NCBI GenBank assembly: GCA_030726725.1
Contig: JANRDC010000031.1
Location: forward strand, 62,001 to 126,000
Length of the DNA stretch: 64,000 nucleotides
Direction: 5' to 3'
Source: Flavobacteriaceae bacterium
GTDB lineage: Bacteria; Bacteroidota; Bacteroidia; Flavobacteriales; Flavobacteriaceae
Shown here: positions 6,913 to 56,231 of the stretch, in pieces
Layout: each line of letters begins with the position of its first letter
Numbering within the stretch: the first letter of the stretch is position 1
Position numbers and translations under genes: made by a program
Notes under the pieces: generated by a model
Told to the model about the DNA's origin: nothing
The model's database searches: none
Seen by the model: the letters and a program-made list of their open reading frames with translations, nothing else

Positions 6913-7860
6913 CTACTCTAAAGTAGCCAAATAGCGCTCTGCATCAAGTGCAGCCATACATCCAGTACCGGCAGCTGTAATGGCTTGTCGGTACTCTTTG
7001 TCTTGGACATCTCCTGAGGCAAATACCCCTGGTTTATTGGTTTTGGTGGATTTGCCATGGGTGATCAAATATCCTGTTTCATCCATATCCAACTGCCCTT
7101 TAAATATATCGGTGTTGGGCTTGTGACCGATGGCCACAAACAAACCTGTAACCGCAATCACCTCTTCTTTACCTGTTTTGTTGTTGACGATTTTCAATCC
7201 CTCAACTACCTGTTCTCCCAAAACCTCAGCAACTTCGGTGTTGTATCTGATCTCGATATTGGGCAGGTTTTTTACCCTGTGCTGCATGGCTTTTGAGGCG
7301 CGCATCTCTTCCTTGCGCACCAGCATGGTGACTTTTTTACAAATATTGGCCAAATAGGATGCCTCTTCAGCTGCGGTATCACCTGCACCCACAATCGCTA
7401 CTTCTTGTCCTTTGTAGAAAAAACCATCACAAACTGCGCAAGCAGAAACACCACCTCCCTTGAGTCTTTCCTCACTGGGTAGTCCTAAATATTTGGCCGT
7501 TGCCCCTGTCGAAATAATGATTGTTTTTGCCTCGATATGCTTGTTTCCATCCACCACAACGCGATGAATTCCTCCAGCCTTTTCAGAAAAAACAACCTCG
7601 GTCACCATACCGATGCGCACATCTGTACCAAATCTCTCAGCCTGTTTCTGCAGCTGAACCATCATGGTAGGTCCATCAACACCATCGGGATACCCCGGGA
7701 AATTGTCTACCTCAGTGGTGGTGGTTAACTGACCTCCAGGCTCCATACCTGTGTATAAAACGGGTTTCATATCTGCCCGAGCTGCATAGATCGCAGCCGT
7801 ATATCCCGCAGGACCTGAACCGATAATCAACGTGGTTAATTGTTCTACTTCTTGTGACAT
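6913..7860 (-). CDS. trxB: Thioredoxin reductase
   Basis: 315 residues, typical length. FAD-binding GSGPAGYTAAIYAARA at about 14-29, NADPH-binding GAGDTAAEEA in the middle and the redox motif SACAVCDGFF with C141 and C144 identify low-molecular-weight thioredoxin reductase, which passes electrons from NADPH to thioredoxin in the cytosol. The gene is transcribed alone: a terminator lies upstream (7953-7990) and a consensus -7 element sits 20 bases before its ATG. It has no thioredoxin gene next to it. Confidence 0.95.
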   Translation of the reverse strand: MSQEVEQLTTLIIGSGPAGYTAAIYAARADMKPVLYTGMEPGGQLTTTTEVDNFPGYPDGVDGPTMMVQLQKQAERFGTDVRIGMVTEVVFSEKAGGIHRVVVDGNKHIEAKTIIISTGATAKYLGLPSEERLKGGGVSACAVCDGFFYKGQEVAIVGAGDTAAEEASYLANICKKVTMLVRKEEMRASKAMQHRVKNLPNIEIRYNTEVAEVLGEQVVEGLKIVNNKTGKEEVIAVTGLFVAIGHKPNTDIFKGQLDMDETGYLITHGKSTKTNKPGVFASGDVQDKEYRQAITAAGTGCMAALDAERYLATLE

Positions 7861-21144: not shown

Positions 21145-24100
21145 TAGGAAAATTTCAATTCTTCTTTACGGGCCAATAGTTGATCGTACTCTTCCTGTGC
21201 GCCAACAATGATTTTGTCGTAAGAACGTAGACCTGTACCTGCAGGAATCTTGTGTCCTACAATGACATTCTCTTTCAGTCCTTCCAATCCATCAATTTTA
21301 CCGCTCACAGCCGCCTCGTTCAATACCTTAGTTGTTTCCTGGAAGGAAGCAGCTGAGATAAATGACTTGGTCTGTAGTGAAGCACGGGTAATTCCTTGTA
21401 GGATCGGGGTAGCAACAGCTGCCATAGCATCACGTGCTACAACGAGTTGTTTGTCCTCTCGTTTGAGCAGAGAGTTCTCATCTCTGAGTTCACGTGCAGT
21501 AACTATTTGCCCAGGCTTTAAGTTGACAGAATCTCCCGCGTCTTCTACGACTTTCTTGCCGTAAATCGCGTCGTTTTCTTTGATAAAGTCGCTCTTGTGC
21601 ACCAATTGGTCTTCAAGGAATAGCGTATCTCCAGAATCCAAGATCTGAACTTTGCGCATCATTTGACGCACCACTACTTCAAAGTGTTTGTCATTGATTT
21701 TTACCCCTTGCAAACGATATACTTCTTGTACCTCATTGACCAAGTACTGCTGTACCGCAGAAGGTCCTTTGATCGACAGGATATCTTCAGGAGTAATCGA
21801 TCCATCAGACAATGGCATTCCAGCGCGAACGTAGTCGTTTTCTTGAACCAAGATTTGGTTAGAAAGCTTCACCAAGTAACGCTTCACTTCACCTAATTTA
21901 GATTCAACAACAATCTCGCGGTTACCGCGTTTGATTTTACCGAATGATACCACACCATCAATCTCAGAAACCACTGCTGGGTTGGATGGATTACGCGCTT
22001 CAAACAATTCTGTAACACGTGGTAGACCTCCTGTAATATCCCCTGCCTTAGCAGATTTTCTTGGAATTTTAACCAGGATTTTTCCTTCAGTGATTTTATC
22101 TGAATCATTGACCATCAAGTGAGATCCAACAGGTAAGTTGTAGGAACGCAACACTTCGTCTTTGTTGTTTTTAATCAACAACGTAGGAATCAGATTTTTG
22201 TTTCTAGACTCGATAATCACTTTCTCTTGGAAACCGGTTTGCTCATCGATTTCTACTTGATAAGTCACCCCTTGCTCAATCTCTTGGTAAGAAATTTTAC
22301 CGGTGAATTCAGAGACAATAACTCCGTTGTATGGATCCCAAGAACAGATGGTTTGTCCAGATTCAACGCGTTGGCCATCTTTGATAAATAAGTGAGAACC
22401 GTAAGGAATATTGTTGGTGCTTAACGTAATTCCAGTGTTGGCATCTACAATCTTGATTTCAGTGGTACGAGAGATCACGATATCGACAGATTTGCCTTCG
22501 TTGTCTTCTCCTTTAACTGTTCTTAAATCTTCGATTTCTGCAATACCTGGGAATTTGACGCTTAACTTGTTGTCTTCAGAGATGTTACCTGCGATACCAC
22601 CCACGTGGAATGTTCTCAAGGTCAACTGGGTTCCAGGCTCTCCAATAGATTGGGCAGCTACGACACCTACTGCTTCCCCTTTCTGCACCATTTTCTGGGT
22701 AGAAAGGTTGCGGCCGTAACACTTGGCACAAATACCTTGTTCTGCTTCACAGGTCAATGCAGAGCGAACCTCTATACGCTCAATCGGAGAAGCTTCAATG
22801 CGCTTCACGTCTTTCTCGGAAATTTCTTGACCCGCACTGAGCAACAACTCTTCGTTCAATGGATTGTATACATCTTGTAAGGAAACACGTCCTAGGATGC
22901 GTTCACCCAAGGTTTCTACTACCTCTTCGTTTTTCTTTAAGGCTTCAACTTCTACACCGCGCAATGTGCCGCAATCTTCAGTATTGATGATTACATCTTG
23001 AGATACATCCACCAAACGACGCGTCAAATAACCCGCATCTGCTGTTTTTAAAGCAGTATCCGCAAGACCCTTACGGGCACCGTGGGTAGAGATAAAGTAT
23101 TCCATGATCGAAAGACCTTCCTTAAAGTTTGAAAGGATAGGGTTTTCGATAATTTCACCACCACCAGCAGTTGATTTGATCGGCTTGGCCATCAAACCAC
23201 GCATACCGGTTAACTGGCGAATCTGTTCTTTTGAACCACGCGCACCTGAATCCAACATCATGTACACAGAGTTGAATCCTTGTTGGTCTTCGCGGATGTT
23301 TTTCATAGCCAATTCAGTCAACATAGCATTAGTAGATGTCCAAACATCGATCACCTGGTTGTAGCGCTCGTTGTTGGTGATCAATCCCATGTTGTAGTTG
23401 GCCATGATGTTGTCCACCTGGTCATTGGCCTTCTCGATCATTCCTTGTTTTTGCTCAGGAATAATGATATCGCCCAAAGAGAAGGAAAGTCCTCCGCGGA
23501 ATGCGAACTCATAACCCATCTTTTTGATGTTGTCCAAGAAAGCAGCAGTCTCAGGAACTGAAGTTACACTGAGGATGTGACCAATAATGTCGCGCAGCGC
23601 TTTTTTATTCAATACTTGGTTGATATAACCAGCGTTTTCTGGAACTTCTTTATTGAACAATACACGGCCTACAGTGGTCTCGATGATTTGATTCACCAAT
23701 TCACCTTGCTCATTGAAATCCTTGGCGCGTACCTTAATACCCGCATTCAACTCGACACGACCTTCGTTTAAGGCGATTTCTACTTCTTCATAAGAGTAGA
23801 AAGTCATGCCTTCTCCTTTGACTTTGTGTTCAGGTGTTGACTTGCGCTCTTTGGTCATGTAATACAGACCGAGCACCATGTCCTGAGATGGTACCGTAAT
23901 TGGAGAACCATTCGCAGGGTTTAGAATATTGTGTGACGCCAACATCAACAATTGAGCTTCCAAAATCGCTTCTGGTCCTAAAGGAAGGTGAACCGCCATT
24001 TGATCCCCATCGAAATCCGCGTTAAACGCAGTACAAGCTAGTGGGTGTAATCTAATCGCTTTACCTTCGATCAACTTAGGTTGGAATGCTTGGATACCCA

Positions 24101-41032: not shown

Positions 41033-41491
41033 ATGAATGTAGAGGAAATCATCAAGTCATCCAAGCCTATTGCGCCAAGAGCGCGTATTGGCCTATTGAT
41101 TCACCTGATTCATACAAACATTCAAGAAACATTGTTGGAGGCGATTAAACCTTATGATATCAGTCTAGCGCAATTCAACGTCCTGCGCATCTTACAAGGA
41201 TATCGCGATACTGCATACATGGAAACGCTCAACGAGCGCATGATACACAAAAGCAGTAACACTACGCGGGTGGTAGACAAATTGATTGCCAAAGGTTTGG
41301 TGGAACGCAAGGTGTGTTCACAGAACAGAAGAAAAATTGAAGTGCGTATTACCCCAGATGGAACAGCTTTATTGACCTTGCTCTCTGAGGCGATCCAAAA
41401 GGCAGAAGAACTACTCACCCATTCATTGAGCTTGGATGAGCTAGCACAATTAACCCAATTATTAAACAAATTTAAAACCAAAACAACATGA
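41033..41491 (+). CDS. MarR-family transcriptional regulator
   Basis: 152 residues. The winged helix is in ISLAQFNVLRILQGYRDTAY and KSSNTTRVVDKLIAKGLVER with the wing KVCSQNRRKIEVRIT. MarR dimers bind palindromes of about this length and release on ligand binding or oxidation; one cysteine (in the wing) is seen. The stop overlaps the yceI start (ATGA), so they form one operon. Co-occurrence with YceI is common in Flavobacteriia; the signal is unknown. Confidence 0.9.
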   Translation: MNVEEIIKSSKPIAPRARIGLLIHLIHTNIQETLLEAIKPYDISLAQFNVLRILQGYRDTAYMETLNERMIHKSSNTTRVVDKLIAKGLVERKVCSQNRRKIEVRITPDGTALLTLLSEAIQKAEELLTHSLSLDELAQLTQLLNKFKTKTT

Positions 41492-42096
41492 AAAAAGGAT
41501 TATTGATTGCAGGAATGGCACTGATGTTTGTCGCTTGTGGCGCGAAAAAAGAAAACCAAGAGGAAGCTGCTGTTGCTGTTGAAGCCACAGCCAACAACAC
41601 TGTTGCTGTAAAATCAGGGGAAAGCCAAGTATTGTGGAAAGGTTATAAGGTAACCGGACAACACGAAGGAACCATTGCTTTGACCGAAGGAAGCTTGTCT
41701 TTTGCAGATCAAGTACTTACTGGAGGATCTTTCACCGTAGACATGACTAGTCTTGTGGCTACTGACCTTGATGGGGAAATGAAAGGAAAATTAGAAGGAC
41801 ACTTAAAGTCAGATGATTTTTTTGGAACAGAAACTCACCCGACTGCCCAATTGGTCATCACTCAAGTAGGTGTTGATGCTGCTGGCGGATACCAGGTAAC
41901 TGGAGATTTATCGATCAAAGGGATTACTCAACCGGTAAGTTTCCCTATGACAGTTGCGGCAAACACAGCAACTGCATCGTTAAAAATTGACCGTACTTTA
42001 TATGATATTCGTTACGGATCTAACAATTTCTTTGAAAACTTGGGCGACAAAGCCATCAACAACGAATTTGATCTAGAAGTAACCCTTCAATTTTAA
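41488..42096 (+). CDS. YceI-family lipoprotein
   Basis: 202 residues. Lipobox MFVACG predicts lipidation at C17. The YceI lipocalin-like barrel follows, with SGESQVLWKGYKVTGQHEGT, LKSDDFFGTETHPTAQLVIT and GDLSIKGITQPVSFPM. Family members bind polyisoprenoid or other amphiphilic lipids in the periplasm. It is coupled to the MarR gene. There is no terminator before the trp promoter, so its transcript would run into the trp attenuator. Confidence 0.9.
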   Translation: MKKGLLIAGMALMFVACGAKKENQEEAAVAVEATANNTVAVKSGESQVLWKGYKVTGQHEGTIALTEGSLSFADQVLTGGSFTVDMTSLVATDLDGEMKGKLEGHLKSDDFFGTETHPTAQLVITQVGVDAAGGYQVTGDLSIKGITQPVSFPMTVAANTATASLKIDRTLYDIRYGSNNFFENLGDKAINNEFDLEVTLQF

Positions 42097-42104
42097 AGGA
42101 ACAC

Positions 42105-42134
42105 TTGTTTTTTTGTACAGGTTACTTATCTTTG
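42105..42134 (+). promoter_or_regulatory. Promoter of the trp operon
   Basis: TTG (42105-42107), 19-base spacer, TATCTTTG (42127-42134). The -7 element ends five bases before the leader peptide ATG, so the leader mRNA may be leaderless. Confidence 0.65.
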
Positions 42135-42139
42135 AGGCC

Positions 42140-42196
42140 ATGAACAACAAAAACAAATTTTCTTGGTGGTGGAACAACTTACAGCAAAACCTGTGA
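42140..42196 (+). CDS. trpL: trp operon leader peptide with three consecutive Trp codons
   Basis: A complete 18-codon frame, MNNKNKFSWWWNNLQQNL, with TGG TGG TGG at 42164-42172 and stop TGA at 42194-42196. Tryptophan is the rarest residue, so three in a row in a short frame 70 bases before trpE is strong evidence for a leader peptide that senses charged tRNA-Trp. It follows the trp promoter and precedes an intrinsic terminator. The frame is too short for ordinary gene finding. Confidence 0.9.
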   Translation: MNNKNKFSWWWNNLQQNL

Positions 42197-42197
42197 G
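42178..42197 (+). promoter_or_regulatory. Candidate pause/anti-antiterminator hairpin in the trp leader
   Basis: CTTACAG (42178-42184) pairs with CTGTGAG (42191-42197) around a six-base loop (seven pairs, one G-U). It begins six bases after the Trp codons, where a ribosome stalled there would prevent it from forming. Confidence 0.5.
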
Positions 42198-42221
42198 CAA
42201 ACCCTACTGTATAACCATACT

Positions 42222-42254
42222 AAGGCTTGTCTTCACGACAAGCCTTTTTTCTTT
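42222..42254 (+). terminator. Attenuator terminator of the trp operon
   Basis: AAGGCTTGTC (42222-42231) pairs perfectly with GACAAGCCTT (42237-42246), loop TTCAC, followed by TTTTTTCTTT. It lies between the leader peptide and trpE. It should be formed when Trp is plentiful, and also stops read-through from yceI. Confidence 0.92.
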
Positions 42255-42266
42255 AATAACCCTGCT

Positions 42267-43670
42267 ATGAGAATCCATCGTCTGAAAACAGATTACCAAA
42301 AACTGCTCGCAGATACACTGACACCGGTGAGTGTTTATCTGAAGATCAGGGATCGATTTGCCCAAAGTATTTTGTTGGAGAGCAGCGATTATCACGCCAA
42401 TGACAATAGCTTCTCCTATATCTGTTGCCAGCCGATTGCCTGGTTCAAAATAGAACGCGATCAAGTAGAAGAGCGCTACCCTGACGGGAGTACCCATCAC
42501 TACACCCTGGCGGAAAAGGACAATGTCCCTGAACTCATTGCGCAATTCAGTACCTCATTCTCAGTGGATGGGCCTGCCTTTAAATTTATTAACCACGGAC
42601 TATTTGGTTATATGTCCTACGACAGTGTGCGGTATTTTGAGGATATTAAAATTGAGAAAAAAGAGCCTCAAACCAGTATACCAGACGTGTATTACGCGGT
42701 TTATCAAAACATCATAGCGATCAATCATTTCAACAACGAAGCATTCCTTTTTTGTCACCACACAGAGGATCAACACAGCAATTTAGCTGAACTTGCAGGC
42801 TGGATTCAGGTACCCTCATTTCCCAGTTATCCGTTTAAGCTGGTGGGTGATCAAAAAACCAACGTGGCTGATCAGGATTTTAAGTCTTTGGTGGATTTAG
42901 CAAAAACCCATTGCCAAAGAGGAGATGTGTTTCAACTGGTATTGTCCAGAAGATTTGAGCAGCCATTTCAGGGAGATGAATTCAATGTTTATCGGGCTTT
43001 GAGAACCATCAACCCCTCTCCATATCTGTTTTATTTCGATTACGGCAACTTTAAATTATTGGGCAGTTCACCTGAAGCTCAATTGGTGGTCAAAAATGAC
43101 CTTTGCGAAATCCATCCCATTGCGGGTACGTTTCGCAGGACCGGAAATGACGAGCAAGATGCGGAGTTGGCCAAAAAGCTAAGCGAAGATGCTAAAGAAA
43201 ACGCGGAGCACGTCATGTTGGTCGACCTAGCGCGCAACGATCTCAGCAGGCACGGAAGTATTGTGCAGGTGGAGACCTATAAAGAAGTCCAATTCTTTTC
43301 CCATGTGATCCACTTGGTGTCCAAAGTAACCGGGCGAAAAAAACCTGAAGTACCCACCATGAAAGTAGTGGCGGACACATTTCCGGCAGGCACATTGAGC
43401 GGTGCACCTAAACACAAAGCCATGGAGCTTATCGAGCGATACGAACCCACCCCAAGAGGGTATTACGGAGGAGCGATAGGATTTATGGACTTTTCTGGAA
43501 ATTTTAACCACGCCATCATGATTCGCACCTTTTTAAGCAAAAACCAAACACTATACTTCCAAGCGGGTGCTGGTATTGTTGCCGCCTCCAGCGCTGAAGC
43601 GGAGAATCAAGAAACCTATAATAAACTCGGTGCTTTACACAAAGCGCTTTCTATGGCAGAAGCCCTTTAA
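42267..43670 (+). CDS. trpE: Anthranilate synthase component I
   Basis: 467 residues. The N-terminal LLES motif (36-39) is the tryptophan feedback site. The chorismate-binding domain includes FQLVLSRRFE, GSSPEAQLVV, HPIAGTFRRTG, DLARNDLSRHG and GAPKHKAMELIE. It makes anthranilate from chorismate with TrpG. It is the first structural gene, 12 bases after the attenuator T-tract, followed by trpG four bases on. Confidence 0.96.
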   Translation: MRIHRLKTDYQKLLADTLTPVSVYLKIRDRFAQSILLESSDYHANDNSFSYICCQPIAWFKIERDQVEERYPDGSTHHYTLAEKDNVPELIAQFSTSFSVDGPAFKFINHGLFGYMSYDSVRYFEDIKIEKKEPQTSIPDVYYAVYQNIIAINHFNNEAFLFCHHTEDQHSNLAELAGWIQVPSFPSYPFKLVGDQKTNVADQDFKSLVDLAKTHCQRGDVFQLVLSRRFEQPFQGDEFNVYRALRTINPSPYLFYFDYGNFKLLGSSPEAQLVVKNDLCEIHPIAGTFRRTGNDEQDAELAKKLSEDAKENAEHVMLVDLARNDLSRHGSIVQVETYKEVQFFSHVIHLVSKVTGRKKPEVPTMKVVADTFPAGTLSGAPKHKAMELIERYEPTPRGYYGGAIGFMDFSGNFNHAIMIRTFLSKNQTLYFQAGAGIVAASSAEAENQETYNKLGALHKALSMAEAL

Positions 43671-43674
43671 GGAG

Positions 43675-44253
43675 ATGAAAGAAATACTTGTTATCGACAA
43701 CTACGACAGTTTTACCTATAACCTGGTCCACCACCTTGAAGCGCTGGGTGCCCGTGTTCGGGTGGTGCGCAATGACCAAATCGCTTTGGAGGAGGTAGAC
43801 CGATTTGACCATATTGTATTGTCCCCCGGACCCGGAATTCCCGATGAAGCAGGACTGCTAAAAGCGATTATTCAAGCCTATGCCCCCACCAAAGCGATTT
43901 TTGGGGTGTGCCTGGGTCAGCAAGCGATTGCTGAGGTTTTCGGCGGAAGTTTAACCAACCTCAGCCAAGTATACCACGGAATAGGCACACAGATCAACAT
44001 CGATACCACCGAGCCTATTTTTCGCGGGCTACCCGAACAAATTCAGGCGGGAAGATATCATTCTTGGGTGGTGAACCAGGAAGATTTGCCTGCAGAATTA
44101 CGCGTGACTGCTCGAGACCAAAATGGGCAAATCATGGCCATCAGACACCTCAACTACGAGGTTTGCGCTGTGCAATTTCACCCGGAATCGATCCTTACCC
44201 CGGACGGAGCGCAGATGTTACAACAATGGCTCACCCATACCAAATACTTTTAG
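43675..44253 (+). CDS. trpG: Anthranilate synthase component II (glutamine amidotransferase)
   Basis: 192 residues from ATG 43675. Class I amidotransferase: SPGPGIPDEAG, FGVCLGQQAIAEVFGG with the nucleophile C79, and the His/Glu pair in VQFHPESILTPDG. It supplies ammonia to TrpE. The frame is open further upstream into trpE, but MKEILVIDNYDSFTYNLVH is the standard start. A possible double use in folate synthesis cannot be excluded; no pab genes are nearby. Confidence 0.95.
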   Translation: MKEILVIDNYDSFTYNLVHHLEALGARVRVVRNDQIALEEVDRFDHIVLSPGPGIPDEAGLLKAIIQAYAPTKAIFGVCLGQQAIAEVFGGSLTNLSQVYHGIGTQINIDTTEPIFRGLPEQIQAGRYHSWVVNQEDLPAELRVTARDQNGQIMAIRHLNYEVCAVQFHPESILTPDGAQMLQQWLTHTKYF

Positions 44254-44256
44254 CGG

Positions 44257-45261
44257 ATGAAGACATTGCTCAACCAATTGACCCAACACCAACAACTTTC
44301 CAAAGAATCAGCCAAACAGGTGTTGACGCAAATCGCTCAAGGCCAATACTCAGAATCTGAGATCGCCGCCTTTTTGACGGTTTATATGATGCGCAGTATC
44401 AGTATCGAGGAATTAGCTGGATTTCGGGATGCATTGCTCGAACTGTGCATTCCCATAGACTTGTCCGCATATACTGCTATTGACCTCTGTGGTACTGGGG
44501 GTGACGGAAAAGATACCTTTAATATTTCAACACTAGCCTCTTTTGTCACAGCTGGAGCAGGGATACACGTAGCCAAACACGGTAATTACGGGGTTTCATC
44601 TGCCTGCGGGTCGAGCAATGTGCTTGAAGCTTTGGGCATTAAATTTAGTGCTGACGAGGCGTTTTTGCGCAGTTGTATCGAAAAGGCAGGCATCTGTGTG
44701 CTACACGCCCCGCTTTTTCACCCAGCCATGAAACAAGTAGCCCCGGTGCGCAGAAGTCTTGGCGTCAAAACTTTTTTCAATATGTTGGGTCCCATGGTGA
44801 ACCCCTCAAGACCGACTTATCAGCTGGTGGGTGTTTTTCAACTAGAACTAGCTAGGATGTATCAATACCTGTATCAAAAAGACCAAACCCAATACACCAT
44901 TGTTCACGCGCTGGATGGGTATGATGAAATATCTTTGACCGGAAGTGCGAAAATCATCACACCCCAAGGTGAGTCTTTGTTAAATCCCCAAGATTTTAAA
45001 GCCCAGCAATGGAAGATGAGCGATATTACTGGGGGGAATGGCATTGAAGATGCTGCAAAAATTTTTCAGGAGGTACTCAAAGGCCAAGGCACCCAAGCGC
45101 AAAACGAGGTGGTTTGTGCCAATGCCGCATTGGCCATATCCACAGTCCAAGGTTGCAGTCTAGCTCATGCCGTAGACCAAGCCGTAGATAGTCTACAGTC
45201 CGGGCGTGCTCATCAATCATTTGTTTCATTGCAAAATATATCAAAGTCATGGACATCTTAA
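44257..45261 (+). CDS. trpD: Anthranilate phosphoribosyltransferase
   Basis: 334 residues. PRPP-binding CGTGGDGKDTFNIST, then AGIHVAKHGNYGVSSACGSS and VRRSLGVKTFFNMLGPMVNP are diagnostic. It joins anthranilate to PRPP. It starts three bases after trpG and overlaps trpC by 13 bases. Confidence 0.96.
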   Translation: MKTLLNQLTQHQQLSKESAKQVLTQIAQGQYSESEIAAFLTVYMMRSISIEELAGFRDALLELCIPIDLSAYTAIDLCGTGGDGKDTFNISTLASFVTAGAGIHVAKHGNYGVSSACGSSNVLEALGIKFSADEAFLRSCIEKAGICVLHAPLFHPAMKQVAPVRRSLGVKTFFNMLGPMVNPSRPTYQLVGVFQLELARMYQYLYQKDQTQYTIVHALDGYDEISLTGSAKIITPQGESLLNPQDFKAQQWKMSDITGGNGIEDAAKIFQEVLKGQGTQAQNEVVCANAALAISTVQGCSLAHAVDQAVDSLQSGRAHQSFVSLQNISKSWTS

Positions 45262-46037
45262 CCCGCATATGCCGCAACAAGCAAGTACAAGTGGACCTGG
45301 TGAAAAATCAAGTGCCGCTTTCTGTACTTCAATCCATGCCTGCGTACACCAGAAATGCATATTCACTCAGGGACTTATTATACCACAGTTCCAGTGGACT
45401 GATTACAGAACACAAAAGAAGATCTCCGTCAAAAAATCACATAAGAACAGATCACCATATTCAAGAGGTGGCTAAAGGCTACCAATCAGGGGGTGCATGT
45501 GGTATGTCCGTATTGACTGAAGTAGGCTATTTTGGTGGGGCGCCAGAGGACTTGATTATTGCGCGCGCCAGTTGTAGCTTACCCCTTTTGCGCAAAGACT
45601 TTATGGTGGATCCCTATCAGGTCCATGAAGCTAAAGCATGGGGTGCCGACGTAATCTTGTTAATCGCAGCAGCTTTGGATCCCAAATCTATTGATTTGCT
45701 GAGCGGTTTAGCACATGAACTAGGTTTGGAGGTGCTTTTGGAAGTTCACGACTTGGCCGAACTCAATCGCTCATTGACACCTCATATAGATATGGTCGGA
45801 GTCAACAACCGAAACCTGAAGACCTTTGAGGTATCGACACAAGTAAGTATTGATCTTGCCCAGCACATCCCAGACCACCTGGTAAAAATTTCAGAAAGCG
45901 GATTGACTGACGCAAAAGAAATAAGCGCATTGCGCGCCGTGGGATACCGTGGCTTTCTCGTTGGGGAGCATTTGATGAAGTCGGATGACCCCGGCGAGGC
46001 AACGCGACTAATGATTGAAGAAATTACCCGTATATGA
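45249..46037 (+). CDS. trpC: Indole-3-glycerol-phosphate synthase
   Basis: 262 residues. TIM barrel with the catalytic lysines near VKNQVPL and SCSLPLLRKDFMVDPYQ, GLEVLLEVHDLAEL, MVGVNNRNLKTFEV and ISESGLTD. It closes the indole ring. Overlaps trpD upstream and trpF downstream (ATGA). Confidence 0.96.
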   Translation: MDILTRICRNKQVQVDLVKNQVPLSVLQSMPAYTRNAYSLRDLLYHSSSGLITEHKRRSPSKNHIRTDHHIQEVAKGYQSGGACGMSVLTEVGYFGGAPEDLIIARASCSLPLLRKDFMVDPYQVHEAKAWGADVILLIAAALDPKSIDLLSGLAHELGLEVLLEVHDLAELNRSLTPHIDMVGVNNRNLKTFEVSTQVSIDLAQHIPDHLVKISESGLTDAKEISALRAVGYRGFLVGEHLMKSDDPGEATRLMIEEITRI

Positions 46038-46690
46038 GGCTAAATCATTGGGAACTTAAGGTTTGTGGCATGACCCAAAGGGACAACATCCAAGCTGTTT
46101 TGGAAGCAAAACCTGATTGGATGGGACTCATTTTCTGGCCAGAGTCCAAACGGTATTGTACCTTAACGGCTACGGCTTGGCAAACTATTGATTTAGCCCA
46201 AACCAAGTCAGTAGGCGTATTTGTCGATCAACCCATCGATGAGGTCGCCCAAATCGCACAAACCTATAAGCTCAACGGCCTGCAGCTTCATGGGAACGAA
46301 TCTCCAGAATACCTAAAAACACTTAAAAGCATACTGCCAAAGGCGACTGTGATTAAAGCATTCTCGGTAGATCAGGACTTTAATTGGAAGATACTCATGC
46401 CGTATCAAGCGTGTTGCGACCTATTTTTATTTGACACAAAAGGACCTCTTCCGGGCGGAAATGGAACAGCCTTTGATTGGTCCATTTTGACCCAATATCC
46501 AGGACCAACACCCTTTTTACTGAGCGGTGGAATACATCTTGGATTGACTAAAAGCCTTTTAGCATGGGGCAACACTCCGGCATCCAAGTGGTGTGTGGGG
46601 ATCGATGTGAACTCTGGTTTTGAAGTCAGTCCGGGCATAAAAAATCCAGAACAAATCAAAGAAATTAGCCTACAGTGCAAACAACTATAA
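46034..46690 (+). CDS. trpF: Phosphoribosylanthranilate isomerase
   Basis: 218 residues. KVCGMTQRDNI with the catalytic cysteine near residue 12, LQLHGNESPEYL and FLLSGGIHLG are typical of TrpF, a separate protein here rather than fused to TrpC as in E. coli. The start overlaps the trpC stop by four bases. Confidence 0.95.
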   Translation: MRLNHWELKVCGMTQRDNIQAVLEAKPDWMGLIFWPESKRYCTLTATAWQTIDLAQTKSVGVFVDQPIDEVAQIAQTYKLNGLQLHGNESPEYLKTLKSILPKATVIKAFSVDQDFNWKILMPYQACCDLFLFDTKGPLPGGNGTAFDWSILTQYPGPTPFLLSGGIHLGLTKSLLAWGNTPASKWCVGIDVNSGFEVSPGIKNPEQIKEISLQCKQL

Positions 46691-46700
46691 ATCAAAGCAG

Positions 46701-47888
46701 ATGAAAAAAAGTTATCAAGTGGACGAGTGGGGATATTACGGAACATTTGGGGGTGCCTACATCCCTGAAATGCTGTACCCAAACACGGAAGAACTGCGCA
46801 CTCAATACCTGTCTATCATGGCAGAGCCAGACTTTCAACAGCAATTTGACCAACTGCTCAAGGACTATGTCGGAAGGCCAACACCCTTGTATTTTGCTCA
46901 GCGATTATCCGCACAGGTCGGCTGTAAAATCTATCTAAAGCGCGAAGACTTATGCCATACAGGTGCGCACAAAATCAACAACACCATCGGACAAATACTG
47001 ATGGCCAAAAGGCTGGGCAAATCTAGAATTATCGCTGAAACAGGAGCTGGACAACACGGAGTAGCCACGGCCACTGTTTGCGCATTGATGGGGCTGGAAT
47101 GCATCGTTTATATGGGCGAAGTAGATATCAAACGCCAAGCGCCTAACGTGGCGCGCATGAAAATGTTGGGGGCTCAAGTTCGTCCAGCTACCTCTGGTTC
47201 GAAAACCTTAAAAGATGCGACCAACGAAGCCATTAGGGACTGGATCAACAACCCAGTAAATACCCACTACATCATCGGCTCTGTAGTAGGACCACACCCC
47301 TACCCAGATATGGTCGCCAGATTCCAATCGGTTATCGCTCAAGAAACCATGGATCAACTCATGGAAGTTGAAGGCAGAGACTATCCAGACGCCGTAGTCG
47401 CCTGTGTCGGTGGGGGCAGTAATGCCGCTGGTGCCTATTATCACTTTCTAGACCGTGAAGAAGTGCGCATCATCGCCGTTGAGGCTGCCGGTAAGGGCAT
47501 CCACACCGATGAAAGTGCCGCTACTTCAGTATTGGGGAGAGAAGGAATCATACACGGATCTAAAACCCTATTGATGCAATCTCCAGATGGACAAATCACG
47601 GAACCATACTCTATTTCAGCAGGTTTGGATTACCCGGGTATTGGCCCGATGCACGCACACCTCTTCCGTTCCAAAAGAGGAGAGTTTATCTCGGCCACTG
47701 ACGAACAAGCCATGCAAGCTGGACTGATGTTGAGTCAATTAGAAGGAATTATCCCCGCTATAGAAACATCACACGCCTTGGCGGTATTGGATCAATTAAA
47801 CTTTAAATCCACGGATGTAGTGGTGGTTAACCTCTCTGGAAGAGGAGATAAAGACCTCAACACCTACATCGATTATTTTAAATTATAG
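46701..47888 (+). CDS. trpB: Tryptophan synthase beta chain
   Basis: 395 residues. PLP lysine K91 in GAHKINNTIGQ, the phosphate-binding GGGSNAAG loop and ETGAGQHGVATATV identify standard TrpB1. It condenses indole with serine. It lies three bases before trpA. Confidence 0.97.
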   Translation: MKKSYQVDEWGYYGTFGGAYIPEMLYPNTEELRTQYLSIMAEPDFQQQFDQLLKDYVGRPTPLYFAQRLSAQVGCKIYLKREDLCHTGAHKINNTIGQILMAKRLGKSRIIAETGAGQHGVATATVCALMGLECIVYMGEVDIKRQAPNVARMKMLGAQVRPATSGSKTLKDATNEAIRDWINNPVNTHYIIGSVVGPHPYPDMVARFQSVIAQETMDQLMEVEGRDYPDAVVACVGGGSNAAGAYYHFLDREEVRIIAVEAAGKGIHTDESAATSVLGREGIIHGSKTLLMQSPDGQITEPYSISAGLDYPGIGPMHAHLFRSKRGEFISATDEQAMQAGLMLSQLEGIIPAIETSHALAVLDQLNFKSTDVVVVNLSGRGDKDLNTYIDYFKL

Positions 47889-47891
47889 GGC

Positions 47892-48659
47892 ATGAGCACA
47901 CGTATTGAACAATTGTTTCAAAACAAGAAGGATATTCTATCCATATACTTTACCGCTGGATATCCCGCACACTCAGACACCCTGCCTATTTTGACCTCAC
48001 TGCAAGCACAGGGGGTTGATATGGTAGAAATAGGTTTGCCTTTCTCCGACCCATTGGCCGATGGACCTGTGATACAGCAGAGCTCTACCCAGGCATTGGC
48101 CCTAGGTATGACTACCGAAGTGCTTTTTGAACAACTAAAAGATGTGCGGTCCAAAATCGATATTCCTCTGGTGATCATGGGTTATTTTAACCCAGTTTTG
48201 CAGTTTGGGGTTGCGGAATTTTGTAAAAAATGCGCTGAAACAGGGATTGATGCGGTTATTTTACCCGATCTACCGCTGACAGTTTACGAACGTGAATACA
48301 AAGCCATTTTTGAAAGCTATGGGATTCACTTGATCTTTTTAATCACCCCCCAAACTTCTGATGAGCGCATTCGGGCGTTGGATCAGGCCAGCAAAGGATT
48401 TATTTACTTGGTGAGCACCGCCAGTGTAACAGGCAGCGGAGCAGGGTTTGGTCAGGCGCAGGCAGATTATTTTAAGCGCATCTCAGACATGAAACTCCAG
48501 AATCCAATTGTAGTTGGATTTGGCATCAAAGACCGAGAGACGTTTGCTCAAGCTACTGCACACGCTGATGGTGCCATCATCGGCTCTGCATTTATCAATG
48601 CATTGAGTGATCAAGGGCTTGAAGTCATACCTGAATTCGTTCAGGGCATACGCGGCTAA
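47892..48659 (+). CDS. trpA: Tryptophan synthase alpha chain
   Basis: 255 residues. MVEIGLPFSDPLADGPVIQ holds the catalytic Glu and Asp, and the loop TASVTGSGAGFG is conserved. It releases indole for TrpB. It is the last trp gene; its stop overlaps the convergent peptidase stop (CTAA at 48656-48659) and no terminator is seen. Confidence 0.96.
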   Translation: MSTRIEQLFQNKKDILSIYFTAGYPAHSDTLPILTSLQAQGVDMVEIGLPFSDPLADGPVIQQSSTQALALGMTTEVLFEQLKDVRSKIDIPLVIMGYFNPVLQFGVAEFCKKCAETGIDAVILPDLPLTVYEREYKAIFESYGIHLIFLITPQTSDERIRALDQASKGFIYLVSTASVTGSGAGFGQAQADYFKRISDMKLQNPIVVGFGIKDRETFAQATAHADGAIIGSAFINALSDQGLEVIPEFVQGIRG

Positions 48660-55668: not shown

Positions 55669-56231
55669 TGTTCTTCTAGGGGTTTATTGCCATTGCCCAC
55701 CACCAAAGTCAGTGAGGACATCTGAGGAATTTTCTGGCCAGACTTCAGGGTTTTTCCTCGGTATAGGACTTCGTAGACCATGTCGGTGCCCAGTGCGTCG
55801 ATATACTCGATATTACCTACTTTGAAACCTGCAGCTGTCAATCGCGAAGTAGCATTGCGCAAAGTGACTTGAACGACTAAGGGAACAGCCACCTCGGAAT
55901 AACCCGCAGCGTTCATGGTGAGGTATATCTGTCTTTTTTCTTTGACAAAGGAACCAGCGGTAGGAAACTGTTCTATAACGCTGTAGGGCGGATGATTGGG
56001 ATTGTATTTGGTAGAATCCACCACCGCATAGCGCAAATCCAGTGCGGTCAAGGCAGATGCCGCTGGGGCCAAAGCCATACCTGAAAGGTCGGGTACGGTG
56101 ATTTTTTGATCGTGATGGGTATTGTATTTGAGCCATTGCATCAAAATAAAGGTCAACACCACCGTGATCCCCGCTGCGCGAACAGCCCACTTAAAAAACC
56201 CGAGATCGGTAAGCCAGCGAATGATTTTCAT
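55665..56231 (-). CDS. PASTA-domain membrane protein
   Basis: 188 residues from ATG 56231. One transmembrane helix near residues 18-37 (WAVRAAGITVVLTFILMQWL) and two to three PASTA repeats outside: KITVPDLSGMALAPAASALT, PPYSVIEQFPTAGSFVKEKR and a third. PASTA domains bind peptidoglycan fragments or beta-lactams. There is no kinase domain. It precedes rluD and diverges from ddl, which would fit a cell-wall role. Confidence 0.87.
   Translation of the reverse strand: MKIIRWLTDLGFFKWAVRAAGITVVLTFILMQWLKYNTHHDQKITVPDLSGMALAPAASALTALDLRYAVVDSTKYNPNHPPYSVIEQFPTAGSFVKEKRQIYLTMNAAGYSEVAVPLVVQVTLRNATSRLTAAGFKVGNIEYIDALGTDMVYEVLYRGKTLKSGQKIPQMSSLTLVVGNGNKPLEEQ

Follow-up and report, generated by a model that had tools for sequence, protein, structure and literature searches.

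The window, the whole 64,000-nt stretch of Flavobacteriaceae DNA that was analysed, carries on its forward strand a trpE-trpG-trpD-trpC-trpF-trpB-trpA operon (42267-48659, with the trpE ATG at 42267) and, upstream of the trp promoter, a yceI-like gene (41488-42096). The interval between the two holds, all on the forward strand, a TTG (42105-42107) located 19 nt 5' of a -7 box, TATCTTTG (42127-42134), which from its sequence is a putative Bacteroidota sigma-A promoter; a leader peptide ORF of 18 codons, MNNKNKFSWWWNNLQQNL (42140-42196, stop codon UGA at 42194-42196), with three Trp codons, UGGUGGUGG, at 42164-42172 as the proposed sensing (stall) site; and an intrinsic terminator, 3:4 in attenuator terms, with its U tract (42222-42251). 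The terminator hairpin (42222-42246) consists of a 10-bp stem (42222-42231 with 42237-42246) and the loop UUCAC, and is followed by T6. Three more structures, also on the forward strand, belong to the leader: a 1:2 pause or sequestering structure (42165-42208), in which an outer helix (42165-42172 with 42202-42208) surrounds an inner hairpin predicted to have 7 bp (42178-42184 with 42191-42197); a predicted 2:3 antiterminator (42192-42237), where 42192-42203 (UGUGAGCAAACC) would meet 42224-42237 (GGCUUGUCUUCACG) in 11 pairs interrupted by a 1x1 mismatch and a 2-nt bulge; and a small predicted spacer hairpin, GUAU-aacc-AUAC (42209-42220), which would shorten the antiterminator loop. The promoter, the ORF, the Trp codons, the leader hairpin and the terminator had all been marked in a first-pass annotation and each was found where it had been placed; the gene order trpEGDCFBA was equally borne out by the downstream genes.

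That annotation had also supposed that no attenuator of this type was described in Bacteroidota, which is contradicted by three sources: the Bacteroid-trp motif, listed as cis-regulatory in Bacteroidetes by Weinberg in 2010 (PMC2864571) and held in Rfam as RF01692, 'Bacteroidete tryptophan peptide leader RNA'; a 2019 paper that places the motif ahead of the trp operon in Flavobacterium psychrophilum and likens it to E. coli attenuation (PMC6414381); and a 2021 transcriptome study of F. psychrophilum, which finds hints of leader-peptide attenuation upstream of amino-acid operons (PMC9723704). The kind is thus not new, given the Rfam family and the published F. psychrophilum examples; the literature on trp attenuation in Bacteroidetes is sparse and earlier reports may exist. 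RF01692 is the best Rfam match of the region, with 32 bits and an E value of 0.053 in 301 nt, below the gathering score of 49 bits; the window's genome contains no other RF01692 match at E<=0.1. The AUG, the UGGUGG and the final AAGGCUUGUC of the model align to the start codon, the Trp codons and the terminator arm of the window. In whole-genome searches, 113 of 198 relatives had an RF01692 match, which exceeded the cut-off in 72 of them, and the orthologous leaders before trpE in congeners pass the cut-off (52.3 bits in G011, 51.2 bits in G004). Judged by these cut-off-passing orthologues, by the same anatomy and by the trpE phylogeny, the window leader is a relative of RF01692, its own score being below the cut-off.

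Conservation was assessed at 91 flavobacterial trpE loci gathered by TrpE protein similarity alone, blind to the leader. A Trp-run leader is present at 89 of them, and the remaining two are contig ends where the terminator is retained and the leader is cut off. After orientation, a UGGUGG leader lies within 350 nt of trpE at 86 loci; at three others (two Salegentibacter, one Flagellimonas) it is found about 420 nt further upstream, pushed away by an inserted small ORF. This ORF resembles GIY-YIG endonucleases and occupies the gap between attenuator and trpE at about 1083-1500 in L180 and L187 (Salegentibacter) and L183 (Flagellimonas). Of 166 unique leaders, 149 have a run of three Trp codons; in all others the run is two codons long. 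For the terminator stem, 177 unique leaders give 99% paired cells and 60 double-change cells; slid controls reached only 13-60%. The comparison of trpE upstream regions that the first-pass annotation had proposed thus recovered the short Trp-codon frame and compensatory changes in the terminator; covariation in the antiterminator is nearly flat (see below). Phage records searched for the leader gave no match. An alignment of all leaders (MAFFT and RNAalifold) returned the terminator and a spurious 5' helix only, the spacers being too variable, and the 1:2 structure and the antiterminator were therefore tested alignment-free. A second apparent leader in congeners, MMNLTWW with a strong terminator, was rejected, since its frame arises by chance where the yceI-like gene ends and its terminator is that of yceI. 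As a separate observation, two loci from another family of the same order (L085, 102-332, and L097, 271-497, in genomes G120 and G135) bear a tandem pair of Trp leaders before a single trpE, and each leader of the pair possesses a WWW ORF and a terminator of its own (the L085 peptides are MQKINTIWWWQSKL and MLNNKINNWWWPVLTQYAGQSCYNII). By eye, the second tandem leader shows complementarity between leader and terminator loop, UGCGGGA:UUCCGCA in L085 and UGUGGG:CCCACA in L097; a free duplex search recovered it in L085 only.

The alternative foldings recur across the family. Trp codons are paired with downstream sequence in 154 of 177 leaders and the GUGA motif is sequestered in 147 of 163. In the window, before the terminator is made, the Trp codons are predicted to pair with 42202-42208 and UGUGAG (42192-42197) to be held by CUUACA (42178-42183). 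When a stall on the Trp codons is modelled with RNA free from 42184, the antiterminator forms before the 3' arm of the terminator is made; with a narrower footprint, leaving RNA free from 42178, the inner hairpin (42178-42197) persists and the antiterminator is blocked. The terminator folds when the modelled ribosome sits at the stop codon (RNA free from 42206 or 42209) and likewise when no ribosome is present. At equilibrium the terminator of the window is much stronger than the antiterminator (-15.1 against -6.2), and antitermination must thus be kinetic, the choice being made during transcription, as in other attenuators.

In the leaders compared, the antiterminator has a conserved core in which the UCAC of the terminator loop pairs with a GUGA located at the leader stop. 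Almost every leader has UCAC as the last part of this loop, an ending for which terminator function itself has no need. UCGUGA, the reverse complement of UCACGA (that is, the terminator loop and the upper 3' arm), is found near the end of the leader ORF whatever the frame, after the stop (15 codons), overlapping it (18) or inside the frame (20), and this variable position relative to the stop indicates that it is not kept for the peptide. The UCGUGA:UCACGA pairing usually extends through AAG:CUU and CC:GG parts into the 5' arm of the terminator. In the 177 leaders the pairing is worth -13.0 kcal/mol, compared with -7.3 kcal/mol when leader segments are shuffled (mean z -2.7), and the rank p is <=0.05 in 82% of them; the duplex of the window is among the weakest (-9.3 against -7.5 kcal/mol shuffled, p 0.15). 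The antiterminator of the first-pass annotation, 42197-42206 with 42221-42230, does form eight of its ten pairs (one of them G-U), but at -1.2 kcal/mol alone it is merely the weaker half of the full pairing. Rewritten versions that are still complementary occur in congeners (CUGUGA with UCACAG), in L059 (UUGUCGCAA with UUGCGACA), in L036 (GUCGUAG with CUGCGAC) and in family f15 (GGAGAAGC with GCUUCUC). Column shuffling of the core gave almost no excess of covariation (0.817 observed against 0.799) because the columns are nearly invariant, and this measure is hence not used as proof; support for the antiterminator comes from the conserved, otherwise useless loop and from the rewritten complementary versions. 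The same near-invariance would suit another explanation, in which UCGUGA...UCACGA either forms a pseudoknot with the loop of the completed terminator or serves as a binding site for a protein or an RNA, and attenuation proceeds by 1:2 versus 3:4 alone; the core spans the whole UCAC of the terminator loop and could pair while the stem stays unmelted. We consider this unlikely: in most leaders the duplex continues into the 5' arm of the terminator, so that the terminator stem is excluded, and complementarity is retained in lineages with different sequences.

The position of the promoter suggests how the leader might be translated. In F. psychrophilum the TAnnTTTG box spans -12 to -5 (PMC9723704), which would place +1 of the window at 42139, one base before the AUG. 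Since TATCTTTG stops 5 nt short of the leader AUG, a virtually leaderless transcript is expected. Of 169 leaders, 152 have the box no more than 25 nt from the leader ATG, and in 44 of those it is only 4-6 nt away. This close spacing is found in 19 of 21 TrpE-tree rows of a clade comprising the window's genus, Allomuricauda, Cellulophaga, Sediminicola and Eudoraea, and on the TrpE tree it requires at least 7 changes overall, fewer than in any shuffle. TAnnTTTG is not in excess in the window (55 against 53 expected), hence lone promoter matches mean little and the leaderless claim draws on the fixed position of the box in relatives. A leaderless trp leader would be unusual for the family, as leaderless messages make up only 5.5% of the mRNAs whose starts are mapped in F. 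psychrophilum (PMC9723704). The promoter position nevertheless suggests that the trp leader transcript of the window is leaderless. It is tempting to go further and to regard the Flavobacteriaceae trp attenuator as a distinct variant, in which a frame-independent UCGUGA at the leader stop would invade the terminator through the loop and the upper 3' arm, with leaderless translation of the leader in the window's clade, a proposal for which we see the balance as even. If it is true, ribosome loading on the leader would be coupled directly to promoter clearance. The short leader transcript or its peptide might in addition act in trans, like rnTrpL and peTrpL of Sinorhizobium meliloti, whose trpL has the same arrangement, a leaderless attenuator RNA encoding a peptide (PMC7298713). 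We find this improbable, as the leader sequence outside the Trp run follows the needs of RNA pairing, UCGUGA standing in three positions relative to the stop.

A cis-acting attenuator must also be weighed against simpler readings of the same DNA. The TGGTGGTGG run occurs four times in the window against 0.57 expected from shuffles and is thus commoner than chance; the other exact runs lie at 7716-7724 (forward strand) and at 23158-23166 and 55697-55705 (reverse strand). A terminator-like site is expected by chance about once per 1.1 kb. As neither is rare in the window, the case rests on comparison. The fold of the RNA 42140-42256 beats 200 of 200 dinucleotide shuffles (z -3.9). The hairpin could in principle be a mere 3' terminator of the yceI-like gene and the WWW frame a chance short ORF, given that WWW alone is not rare and that the window has no other terminator between yceI and trpE. 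This we judge very improbable: the Trp leader is kept at nearly all of the protein-picked trpE loci across the family, a -7 box stands between the yceI-like gene and trpE, and congeners (L118, L074 and L091) possess a separate, strong 15-bp terminator after the yceI-like gene and ahead of the trp promoter, yet keep the leader and its own terminator. The corresponding interval of the window (42097-42126) contains no such terminator, and transcription from yceI may read through into the attenuator. Direct control of termination by a protein or a tRNA (TrpR, TRAP or T-box, which control trp operons in other phyla) instead of a translating ribosome is scarcely credible, for searches of the window's genome for these families gave no match and the conserved in-frame Trp run makes sense only with translation. 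The observation is real, and the conservation seen in the sequence comparison rules out chance as its source.

The analysis shows the anatomy and the conservation of a trp attenuator and, across the family, its mutually exclusive pairings, the antiterminator being weak in the window alone. The proposal of ribosome-mediated Trp attenuation made by the first-pass annotation gains strong comparative support from (i) the Trp run, (ii) the covarying terminator, (iii) the 1:2 sequestration and (iv) the conserved antiterminator, and we are highly confident that the element is a classical ribosome-mediated attenuator of the trp operon and a divergent relative of Bacteroid-trp. For the window itself we infer the transcription start, the translation of the leader, stalling, termination and the Trp response from the sequence. 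Transcription would start at about 42139, and with the start one base before the AUG a ribosome could load at once on the leaderless end. When charged tRNA-Trp is scarce, the ribosome would stall at 42164-42172, the 1:2 structure would open and 42192-42203 would be freed to pair with the terminator 5' arm, the loop and the first base of the 3' arm (42224-42237), letting the polymerase proceed into trpE. When Trp is plentiful, the ribosome would reach the UGA at 42194-42196 and cover the antiterminator strand, and the terminator (42222-42246) would form. Should translation not take place, the default fold would be 1:2 plus terminator, the off state. Very probably, then, the switch shuts off the tryptophan-making genes of a marine flavobacterium when tryptophan is plentiful.

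We thus regard the window as a divergent addition to a catalogued regulatory RNA; we found no experimental work on Bacteroid-trp in the literature. The kind being already catalogued, the added value lies in the antiterminator and the leaderless prediction: the comparison supplies a testable antiterminator that is absent from the catalogue entry, together with a prediction of leaderless initiation, and the two make the mechanism testable in a laboratory flavobacterium.

Four known systems can be set beside the window. The E. coli trpL shares the Trp-run leader peptide, the alternative 1:2, 2:3 and 3:4 pairings and the terminator before trpE. In contrast to trpL, the window has three adjacent Trp codons, the strand that is predicted to form its antiterminator with the terminator loop overlaps the stop codon, and TrpR is absent from its genome; furthermore, initiation based on a Shine-Dalgarno sequence is not expected, as the phylum Bacteroidota, to our knowledge, lacks it. 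The S. meliloti trpL/rnTrpL shares with the window a leaderless attenuator RNA, starting at the leader AUG in S. meliloti and predicted in the window, and an absence of TrpR-type repression (PMC7298713); the two are unrelated in sequence and phylum, and trans functions of the RNA and the peptide are known for S. meliloti. The amino-acid operon attenuators of F. psychrophilum share the organism family and the proposed mechanism. In the text consulted they are described only in general terms, their structured 5' regions were seen expressed, and the pheA and hisG genes of Flavobacteriaceae are preceded by conserved structured leaders with no Rfam match or family (PMC9723704); these may be the Phe and His counterparts of the trp attenuator. 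RF01692 Bacteroid-trp has in common with the window the phylum, the place before the trp operon, the AUG and A-rich start, a long hairpin whose 5' arm contains the UGGUGG codons, and the conserved 3'-end AAGGCUUGUC, identical in 10 of 10 letters. The window lacks 14 model positions before the terminator and scores below the cut-off, and the model, which stops inside the terminator, annotates no terminator 3' arm and no antiterminator. The antiterminator and the near-leaderless start predicted here thus go beyond the catalogued Bacteroid-trp model.
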